Origin: Hymenobacter edaphi
GTDB taxonomy: Bacteria; Bacteroidota; Bacteroidia; Cytophagales; Hymenobacteraceae
Direction: 5' to 3'
Length of the DNA stretch: 64,000 nucleotides
NCBI RefSeq assembly: GCF_003258365.1
Contig: NZ_QHKM01000003.1
Coordinates: 1-64,000, forward strand
Each line of letters begins with the position of its first letter. Within the stretch, counting starts at the first letter, position 1. The position numbers and the translations under genes were made by a program. Shown here in pieces: positions 53,050 to 56,081 of this stretch. Under the pieces are notes generated by a model that was given only the letters and a program-made list of their open reading frames with translations, did no database searches and was not told the origin of the DNA.

Positions 53050-53092
53050 AAAATTCGTGAAATCCGAAAAATCCGCAGTAATCCGTGGTCTA
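53050..53092. repeat. Dispersed TAGACCACGGATT repeat, copy 2 (inverted)
   Basis: Reverse complement begins TAGACCACGGATT as in copy 1. The first three bases are the TAG stop of the Wzi-like gene (53090-53092), so the element joins the coding end exactly. Confidence 0.75.
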
Positions 53093-54922
53093 GAACTCAT
53101 GCACCCGCTGGGCCGCGTTCCAGCGCAGGGCCAGCGAGGGGTACACACCCGTCGTGCGGGTGCCGTTGACCAGGGCGCTGCGGGCCACCAGCTTGGCGTC
53201 GAGCCAGAGGTTGGGCCGCGCCATCCAAGTGGCGGTGAAGTCGGCGAAGAGCTGCTCTACGCGCCGGCCCTGGGCCACCGTGTTGCCGTAGTCGTTGGGG
53301 CGCGGGGTGTAGGGGCGCAGCACGTTGCCGCCGTAGTTGAGCAGCTCCCGGGTGGTGGCGTCGATGCCGTCCAGGCCGTACACCGAGTAGAAGCCCTTGC
53401 CCACCAGCGTCAGGCGGGGCAGCGGCTGGTAGCTGAGCTGCCCAAACAGCTCCCACAGGTTGGCCCCGATGGGGTGGGCCAGCGGCTGCCCGTAGTGCTC
53501 GTAGGCGCGGTACAGGTCGAGGTGCTGGTAGGTGTAGGGGCGGATGAAGTTGTATTCCACCTGCAAATCCAGGTTCGACAGCCCGAACACGTCCAGGTAC
53601 TTGCCGCCCACCTGAAAGGCCTGCTTGTTGGCCCACCAGCCCCGGCCCGAGCGCACCTGGCTCACCACCAGCTCATCGAGCACCACCTGCCCGTAGAGCT
53701 GGGCGCGGCGCTTGATGTTCCAGCGGAAGTCGGCCCCGAGGATGGCGTTGTCGTTCGAGCCCACGGCCTGCTCCACACTGCGGTAGAAGATGATGGGGTT
53801 CAGGTACTGTAGCTCAAAGCGCCCCTTGCCGCGCCCGAACATGGTCGACTCGAACAGGCCCACGTTCAGCCCCGGCGTGATGTCGTAGCTGAGGTGGTGC
53901 AGGGCCATGTACTTCTTCTGAAACACCGTGTCGACGTTGCGCCGCTCCGCCGTCAGCTCCGCGAAAATGTTCTGGTAGTTGAGCTTCCACACCCGCGTAT
54001 TCAGCTTCAGGAAGAAGTACGGCGCCGCGTAGTCCGACAGAATCAGCGAGCGGTAGCCGTTGCCGATGACGTTCCGGTCGTGGCCCAGCTGCACGTTGAT
54101 GTGCTTGGTGGCGGCGTAAGTGACGTAGCCCCGGGCCGTGAGGAAGTCAAATTGATTCTGCTGGTTCTTGAAGTACTTCCAATAGCCCTCGTGCGGCACC
54201 GCGTTGTCGCGCCGGATGCGGTTGCTCACGTACTCCGGCACCCGCATCTGCGTGTCGGTGAAGTAAGTGTAGAAGCCCAGGCGCTGGTCGATGGTGCCCT
54301 CCACCTGCACCCCGCGGGTGTTGGTGTAGAGGAAGCCATCCGAGCCCGAGCCCACCTGCAGGTTCAGCACCGGGTTGACGCGCAGCTGAAAGTCGGGCGT
54401 GTTGACGCTGTAGAGGTCGGTGGGCATGCGGTAGAAGTGCTTCAGGATTGGCCGCTGACTTTCGGCTGGTCCTGCCGCCGAATGCGTCCAGTTATCCTGC
54501 TGCAGATACGTCTGGTTGAATGCCTCCACCTTACCCGCGGCTGCCATGCGCGCGGCCAGCCGCCCCACCGCCGCCCGGTTGTAGGGCCGCGTGGAGGTGT
54601 GAATGTCGCCCACCGAGTCCGGCCCGTACTTGATGGCGTAGCGGTCAATCAGCCGGTACACGTCCGGGTCCAGCGGCACGTACACCGGCGCCTGCAGCGG
54701 CGCTTTCGCATCCGTCACGTCGATGCGCGCCGGGGCCGAAACCGGCGCCGGGGGCACCGTAACGACGGGCGCCGGCGCTGGGACCGGAGTGGGCGCGGCC
54801 ACCGGCGGCGTAGCGGGCTGAATGGTAGTCGTGCGGGTGGTATCCGTCACCTGCGCCAGCAGGGGCGAGGCGGCAGCGGTCAGCAACAGGCCGAAGCCCA
54901 GCCGGGGAATAAGTCGGTTCAT
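53090..54922 (-). CDS. Wzi-like capsule-assembly outer-membrane protein
   Basis: 610 residues. Signal peptide (GFGLLLTAAASPLLA), a long Pro/Val/Ala linker (residues about 35-85), then an 18-strand-type barrel: PDFQLRVNPVLNLQVG, GVQVEGTIDQRLGFYTYFTDTQMR, INVQLGHDRNVIGNGYRSLIL, YAAPYFFLKLNTRVWKLNYQNIFAEL, ending in VYPSLALRWNAAQRVHEF. GHDRN...GNGYRSL is the Wzi pattern; Wzi anchors capsule chains at the surface. No capsule genes are adjacent, so the role is inferred from family. The stop is shared with a dispersed repeat; a TAGCTTCG box at 54964-54971 may be its -7 element. Confidence 0.85.
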   Translation of the reverse strand: MNRLIPRLGFGLLLTAAASPLLAQVTDTTRTTTIQPATPPVAAPTPVPAPAPVVTVPPAPVSAPARIDVTDAKAPLQAPVYVPLDPDVYRLIDRYAIKYGPDSVGDIHTSTRPYNRAAVGRLAARMAAAGKVEAFNQTYLQQDNWTHSAAGPAESQRPILKHFYRMPTDLYSVNTPDFQLRVNPVLNLQVGSGSDGFLYTNTRGVQVEGTIDQRLGFYTYFTDTQMRVPEYVSNRIRRDNAVPHEGYWKYFKNQQNQFDFLTARGYVTYAATKHINVQLGHDRNVIGNGYRSLILSDYAAPYFFLKLNTRVWKLNYQNIFAELTAERRNVDTVFQKKYMALHHLSYDITPGLNVGLFESTMFGRGKGRFELQYLNPIIFYRSVEQAVGSNDNAILGADFRWNIKRRAQLYGQVVLDELVVSQVRSGRGWWANKQAFQVGGKYLDVFGLSNLDLQVEYNFIRPYTYQHLDLYRAYEHYGQPLAHPIGANLWELFGQLSYQPLPRLTLVGKGFYSVYGLDGIDATTRELLNYGGNVLRPYTPRPNDYGNTVAQGRRVEQLFADFTATWMARPNLWLDAKLVARSALVNGTRTTGVYPSLALRWNAAQRVHEF

Positions 54923-54977
54923 AGGGGAAGGGTAAGCGGCCTGCATACGCAAGCCGCCCCGGCGAAGCTACACTTCC

Positions 54978-55260
54978 CGCCCGAAACGCCCCCAACCGTG
55001 CCCGAAACGCTTCCGCCCATGCCCGACACGTTTCCAGCACGCCCGAAACGCCACCCAGCGTCCCCGAAACGTTTCCAGCATGCCCGAAGCGCTTCCCACC
55101 ATGCCCGAAACGTTTCCAGCGTCCCCGAAACGCTTCCCAGCATCACCGACACGCCACCCAGCACGCCCGACACGTTTCCAGCACCACCGACACGCCACCC
55201 AGCGCCTTCAACACGCTCCCCCGCGTGCCCGACCCGCATCCAAACGCGCCCGGCTGCCAC
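54978..55260. repeat. Degenerate 21-bp tandem array (about 13 units)
   Basis: Units of 20-22 bases, most starting CCCGAAACG or CCCGACACG, continuing TTTCCAGCA or CCACCCAGC. About 13-14 copies fill the gap between two divergent genes. No unique spacers separate the copies, so it is not CRISPR. 21 bases equal seven codons and two helical turns. The hydrolase promoter lies just to its right and the Wzi-like gene promoter just to its left. Confidence 0.88.
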
Positions 55261-55278
55261 CAAGCCGCGTCCGCCGCG

Positions 55279-55286
55279 TAGATTTG
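55279..55286 (+). promoter_or_regulatory. -7 box of the alpha/beta hydrolase
   Basis: TAGATTTG is exact TAnnTTTG, 30 bases before ATG 55317 and just right of the 21-bp array. It supports that ATG and shows the array is not part of the protein. Confidence 0.6.
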
Positions 55287-55316: not shown

Positions 55317-56081
55317 ATGAGCACCGCCCAACCGACCATCGTACTGCTGCACGGTTTCGCCGAAAGCCGCGAAGTCTGGACCACTTTCACCCGCGACTTC
55401 CCCGACGACTACCGCCTCGTCACGCCCAACCTGCTCGGCTTCGGCACCAACGTGCACGACATCCGCGACTTCTCGATGGAGGCCCAGGCCCGCTACCTGG
55501 CCGAGTACCTGCGCCAGCGCGGCGTCGAGCGGGCCGCGTTCGTGTGCCACAGCATGGGCGGCTACGTGGCCCTGGCCTTTGCCGAACGCTACCCCAGCAT
55601 GGTGGCCGGCCTGAGCCTGTTTCACAGCACCGCCCTGCCCGACACCGAGGAGCGCAAAGCCAACCGCGACAAAAACATCGACTTCATCGAGCGCCACGGC
55701 GTGGAGAAGTTCATGGACTCCTTCGTGCGCCCGCTCTTCGCCCCCGCCAACCGCGAAAAGCTGGTCGATGAGCGCTGCTTCCTCGAAGAAATCGGCAAAG
55801 CCACTCCCCAGGACAGCATCATCGGCGCCCTCAAGGCCATGAAGCAGCGCCCCGACCGCACCGAGGTGCTGCGCAAAGCCCGCTTCCCGGTGCAGTTCAT
55901 CATCGGCAAAGACGACGTGGCCGTCACCGTCGAAAGCCTGCTGCCCCAGCTCACCCTGCCCACCGAAAGCCACGTGCTCATCCTCGACAACGTGGGCCAC
56001 GTCGGCTTCTTCGAGCAGCCCGAGGTGACGCGCCGCGCCGTGCTCGACTTTGCCGGCCGCGTGTTCGGCCGCGAGGAATAA
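55317..56081 (+). CDS. Alpha/beta-fold hydrolase
   Basis: 254 residues, cytosolic. HGFAESREVW is the oxyanion region; catalytic triad: nucleophile Ser79 in CHSMGGYVAL, acid Asp199 or Asp200 in GKDDVAV, and His228 in NVGHVGF. Probably an esterase or similar hydrolase; substrate unknown. ATG 55317 is chosen because of the promoter box at 55279; the in-frame extension upstream (to 55080) would only translate the tandem repeat. Confidence 0.93.
   Translation: MSTAQPTIVLLHGFAESREVWTTFTRDFPDDYRLVTPNLLGFGTNVHDIRDFSMEAQARYLAEYLRQRGVERAAFVCHSMGGYVALAFAERYPSMVAGLSLFHSTALPDTEERKANRDKNIDFIERHGVEKFMDSFVRPLFAPANREKLVDERCFLEEIGKATPQDSIIGALKAMKQRPDRTEVLRKARFPVQFIIGKDDVAVTVESLLPQLTLPTESHVLILDNVGHVGFFEQPEVTRRAVLDFAGRVFGREE

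Follow-up and report, generated by a model that had tools for sequence, protein, structure and literature searches.

A degenerate 21-bp tandem array between divergent Hymenobacter genes reads best as one of a dispersed, satellite-like class of intergenic repeats

INTRODUCTION

What is a tandem array of degenerate units doing between two divergent genes? In the 64,000-nucleotide stretch analyzed here (the window), taken from a 6.04-Mb Hymenobacter-type genome (G000), such an array fills the 394-bp intergenic gap between a minus-strand gene and a plus-strand hydrolase gene (Table 1). The original prediction regarded its units as phased sites on one face of the DNA, suitable for cooperative binding of a regulator or nucleoid protein and flanked by two promoters. 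Here, we ask whether the array belongs to these promoters, and we compare it with the same gap in relatives and with arrays elsewhere in their genomes.

RESULTS AND DISCUSSION

Structure of the array

The predicted array of about 13 units was recovered by TRF, lag analysis, and a profile-based parse. TRF reports period 21 at 54979-55183 and period 62 at 54978-55203 (score up to 227), with higher-order periods of 41 and 62 bp. By autocorrelation, the gap reaches a z of 11.3 against a maximum of 4.8 among shuffled versions of 447 gaps, and the parse places 13 units at 54982-55250 in a single phase, starting at 54979 in the phase of the original prediction. The head-to-tail units fall within the roughly 10 to 60 bp that define a minisatellite. 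A length of 21 bp holds for eight of the 12 steps, but it is not uniform, since the other four measure 20 bp; at 20.7 bp on average, a step approximates two turns of the helix. All four short steps are of the TTTCCAGC sub-type, and the alternation of sub-types that had been described is confined to units 3-8 and 10-11. On the right side, decay spans about 55206-55278. A coding repeat was considered and rejected, as the 20-bp steps break frame and conservation power at 3 bp gave a p of 0.75.

Table 1. Features of the intergenic gap and its flanks (window coordinates)
Feature	Position	Strand	Remark
Left gene, secreted or outer-membrane-type protein	53090..54922	-	Wzi-like label unconfirmed
Left gene -7 element (putative), TAGCTTCG	54963..54970	-	Within block kept in nine species (flank alignment)
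Degenerate tandem array, 13 recognizable units	54979..55250	+	Consensus CCCGAAACGCTTCCCAGCATG, steps 21 or 20 bp
20-bp sub-type unit (CGTTTCCAGC)	55021..55040	+	Further copies 55062-55081, 55103-55122, 55165-55184
Array right edge, decayed	55251..55278	+	
Hydrolase gene -7 element (putative), TAGATTTG	55279..55286	+	Identical or similar sequence in relatives
Right gene, alpha/beta hydrolase	55317..56081	+	Pfam

Flanking promoters in relatives with and without the array

The flanking genes are divergent, and Pfam assigns the right one to the alpha/beta hydrolases, both as anticipated. The Wzi-like label given to the left gene is unsupported, with no match in Pfam, NCBIfam, or PDB sequence searches; despite this, the gene is conserved and adjoins the hydrolase gene in relatives too. 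The promoter -7 element of Bacteroidota is TAnnTTTG, and we take the two matches to this motif listed in Table 1 to be the putative -7 elements of the two genes. TAGATTTG or a close variant also lies upstream of the hydrolase gene in relatives, and flank conservation in nine species agrees with the view that both promoters lie just outside the array, which starts 9 bp upstream of one putative -7 element and extends with its decayed edge to the other. Because it fills the space between the two inferred promoters, the array is probably outside both 5' leaders. A scan for sigma-70 promoters and terminators found none.

This position bears on whether the array works as RNA, either as a structured transcript or as a 5' leader element. 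The minus strand of the window array folds far better than shuffles (z of -9.4), but the fold is common neither to orthologous arrays nor to the sister array in G000, no Rfam match was found, and the array lies upstream of both inferred promoters. We therefore regard an RNA role as very improbable.

The closeness of the array to both putative -7 elements and its spacing near two helical turns would suit a local operator array, in which about 13 phased sites bind one regulator that serves both promoters. Such an arrangement is known for BvgA~P at Bordetella promoters, where degenerate weak sites at a two-turn spacing of 22 bp are filled cooperatively on one DNA face (PMC7250471). The present arrays likewise consist of degenerate units at two-turn spacing. 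The Bordetella sites differ: their regulator and promoter function were demonstrated at specific genes, with no dispersal or concerted evolution.

The orthologous gap in relatives, of which the named ones were recognized by way of the hydrolase, argues against such an operator. Of eight relatives examined, four (CRA2 [G006], Solirubrum [G007], G004, and G005) have no array at the same gap, and strain 15J16 (G001) has a decayed one, while both promoters are conserved in the relatives without the array and in 15J16. Units also vary by species. H. jeollabukensis (G003) carries a 21-bp array with a different unit, TTCGACACGCTTCCGACCGCT, whose left edge retains two or three G000-like units; in H. 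gummosus, the array comprises about 20 units that fall into two types; and in H. busanensis (G002), TTTGAAACGCTCCCGAG-type units lie in reversed orientation. Array and promoters are thus not retained together as they would be in a BvgA-like system, and the array appears dispensable next to these promoters, since it is missing or decayed in relatives where they are intact. As judged from these alignments, control of the two flanking promoters by the array does not fit the evidence, and because the same units are also found beside unrelated genes (see below), we consider a local operator array improbable.

Arrays of the same register at other loci

We surveyed intergenic gaps with a codon-model gene caller and a lag scan, comparing one genome per species; the caller uses our own codon model, and its gene calls beyond the window are approximate. 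The survey took in about 1.2 Mb in G000, 0.56 Mb and some short stretches in G003, and 0.4 Mb in G004; G002 and four further genomes each contributed 0.1 Mb. A search for more arrays had been proposed as a check, and many were found at other loci, some of the same family and many with unrelated units. These degenerate arrays lie in other gaps of G000, H. jeollabukensis, H. gummosus, and H. busanensis, and their register is equal even where their units are unrelated. Among 490 gaps in 1.32 Mb of segments picked independently of hits (0.92 Mb of G000 and 0.40 Mb of G003), 17 are strongly periodic, 11 of them with periods of the 21/41/42-bp kind; at the identical threshold, no array was seen in 228 gaps sampled from G004, G005, and G007 (one-sided p of 0.014). 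By extrapolation, G000 would carry about 40 arrays and G003 about 75. The lag scan found few similarly degenerate arrays at other periods. Singleton arrays are mostly unrelated in unit sequence (mean similarity z of 0.17), and a profile search for the window's family in 150 family genomes found arrays in G000, G002, G003, and two genomes of another genus.

Genes next to other arrays encode DnaN, peptidases, a radical SAM protein, and a pseudouridine synthase. We found no functional theme among them and no enrichment of divergent promoters among array gaps; the idea of a regulon was rejected for want of a common theme among array neighbors.

Several other repeats were observed in the survey. 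Two lag-21 calls (L164 and L265:10938) were dropped as heptamer runs; these runs, (TCCTAAC)n or (GTTAGGA)n, occupy L164:13399-13440 and L265:10938-10990 and resemble heptamer repeats reported in some Bacteroidetes. The TAACTGA heptamers of Beggiatoaceae, Cyanobacteria, and some Bacteroidetes lie mostly directly upstream of start codons (PMC4679880). They share with the present arrays the occurrence of many intergenic tandem repeats across a genome beside genes without a theme, but they are single-sequence 7-bp units near starts, whereas the present units are degenerate, 21 bp long, of many sequences, and outside inferred leaders. Arrays at L149:4540-4790, L237:4463-4700, L288:5217-5405, and L243:10457-10645, from four species, terminate in a long hairpin centered on GTCNGAC (e.g., GGGGTCTGACCCC), in which the final unit pairs with its own inverted copy and which is possibly a terminator. 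A tight 41-bp array at L126:1176-1393 has palindromic units (CAATGCGGAACGGCCAAAAACGCTTGTCAGACCCCATTCCG), and some of the 41/42-bp arrays, being palindromic, may be a different thing. Finally, a REP- or MITE-like dispersed inverted repeat around TCATCCTGACGAAGAAAGGACC is found at L018:1365-1465 and at many other loci, with many copies in these genomes.

Units are more alike within genomes than between them

Unit profiles of 25 arrays were compared in all phases and on both strands. The seven top-scoring pairs reach an r of 0.79 to 0.97, and six of them join arrays of one genome. The clean test is provided by two loci with orthologous flanks in G000 and G003: within a genome the two arrays agree at an r of 0.84 (G000) and 0.88 (G003), against 0.51 and 0.46 for the orthologous pairs. 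H. busanensis has units common to three unlinked loci (r of 0.92 to 0.97), two of which have a 165-bp collinear stretch of 86% identity, and its array has no match in any other congener. For the window's family, array pieces common to unlinked loci of one genome thus leave each species with its own unit, closer within the genome than at orthologous loci. The array family upstream of dnaN in G003 is an exception, with relatives at other G003 loci, in G000, in G002, and weakly in G006; since it is common to several species, species-specific homogenization is not universal. A further exception is one palindromic array pair common to G000 and G003. The array upstream of dnaN itself has 14 units, TGGCGTCTGTCAAGCTTGTAA, at L265:16874-17167 (G003 C1:536874-537167).

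Eukaryotic satellite DNA evolves in concert, so that units are alike within a genome and different between species, and its edges are decayed. The present arrays resemble it in within-genome unit similarity and decayed edges and differ in being short (about 10 to 20 units), situated between bacterial genes, and unusually strict in unit length. By the profile comparisons above, the window's repeat family is under concerted evolution, as in satellite DNA.

The closest described case is BrickBuilt of Porphyromonas gingivalis (Bacteroidota), a minisatellite/MITE of spacer-free 23-nt tandem units at 19 intergenic loci, with a limited host range, a single unit type at all loci, a leader, a tail, and terminal inverted repeats (PMC4596501). 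Short spacer-free intergenic tandem units, a limited host range within Bacteroidota, and units with a conserved and a variable half are found in both; the present arrays differ in their 21-bp length, their many unit types, and the lack of any leader, tail, or inverted repeats found. Could these arrays also be repeats of a transposable element? The many intergenic loci per genome, the similar length of the tandem units, and their division into halves would be expected of one. However, loci with common units have no common sequence beyond the arrays and no terminal inverted repeats, and we give a transposable element very little credence. Templated generators were rejected as well: no Piwi domain occurs in any of eight congeners, and a reverse transcriptase domain scores above the cut-off in G003 and G006 alone, a distribution that does not track array presence.

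Unit length is held more tightly than unit sequence

Of 244 unit junctions, 232 had a length of 21 bp and the other 12 a length of 20 bp, with 19 to 23 bp permitted, while mean pairwise identity between units is about 0.5 to 0.7. For comparison, G000-G003 alignments of intergenic DNA elsewhere give a BLAST-based indel/substitution ratio of 0.099. Of arrays simulated at this ratio and at similar divergence, 60% are still detected, with 27% non-21 junctions expected; when the simulation is conditioned on detection, a ratio near 0.01 accounts for the 4.9% actually seen. Indels are thus about 10 times rarer than substitutions would lead one to expect, which suggests that unit length is constrained, an estimate that assumes star-like unit histories and the BLAST-based indel rate. 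On this estimate, repeat length would be under constraint, with sequence free to change. The proposed unit length of about two helical turns is accordingly borne out in a stronger form, being held far tighter than sequence in the window array and in 24 others. Absence of conserved length or units had been named as grounds for refutation, and here the evidence divides: unit sequence and array presence are not kept, and unit length is.

The main rival is neutral minisatellite evolution, in which all arrays would owe their 21-bp length to descent from a single array that has since dispersed and diverged, being neither constrained in length nor functional. Arrays missing or decayed at orthologous gaps, flanking genes without a theme, the lack of promoter enrichment among array gaps, and concerted evolution typical of satellites are all consistent with it, and it accounts for everything but the scarcity of indels. 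There it falls short, as the substitutions would predict about ten times as many indels and each non-21 step is exactly 20 bp; few comparably degenerate arrays at other periods were found, which also argues against it. We consider neutral evolution unlikely, though the most serious of the alternatives.

What might read the spacing

Within the unit, conserved columns are clustered, with weak additional power at 10.5 bp. Under block-shuffle controls, this helix-scale clustering is weaker (k=1, p of 0.004 to 0.07; k=2, p of 0.05 to 0.13), and the 10.5-bp signal is suggestive only. Of the cooperative phased binding that was originally proposed, the part concerning a role in controlling these two genes is not supported; length constraint and column clustering, in turn, are as phased binding would leave them. 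A single sequence-specific protein could not serve all arrays, because the units of other arrays are unrelated.

A possible course of events is that units multiply locally by tandem exchange or slippage and spread between loci by ectopic copying. Their length might then be constrained, and this step is the least certain, if units two turns apart are recognized along one face of the helix. The simplest reader would be a putative protein, DNA-binding or nucleoid-type, that has little sequence specificity and binds cooperatively along the array. We lean, with modest confidence, toward this combination: a satellite-like family of dispersed arrays, maintained by local multiplication and ectopic copying, whose units are held to two helical turns by some unproven cause and are possibly read by a spacing-reading protein.

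A bolder version is tentative and, in our judgment, rather unlikely, if slightly less so than neutral evolution. It holds that these arrays are a bacterial satellite in which unit length, and not sequence, is inherited and selected. Dozens of arrays in each genome, often unrelated in their units, would be held at two helical turns and perhaps serve as tracks for a chromosome-organizing protein that reads spacing over sequence, and copying between loci would keep them alike within a genome.

Conclusions

The window array is best read as belonging to a class of satellite-like intergenic repeats that is dispersed and restricted to a lineage. Our search of the open-access literature found no description of such arrays. 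Intergenic short tandem repeats in bacteria are usually viewed one by one, as strain markers or curiosities. The present arrays form a whole class that has one length in common and turns over in sequence, and one family among them resembles satellite DNA in being copied between unlinked loci of a genome. If the length constraint is real, it would caution against taking single arrays as operators of adjacent genes, and it would open a direct approach to helically phased DNA binding, or to the organization of the nucleoid, in Bacteroidota.
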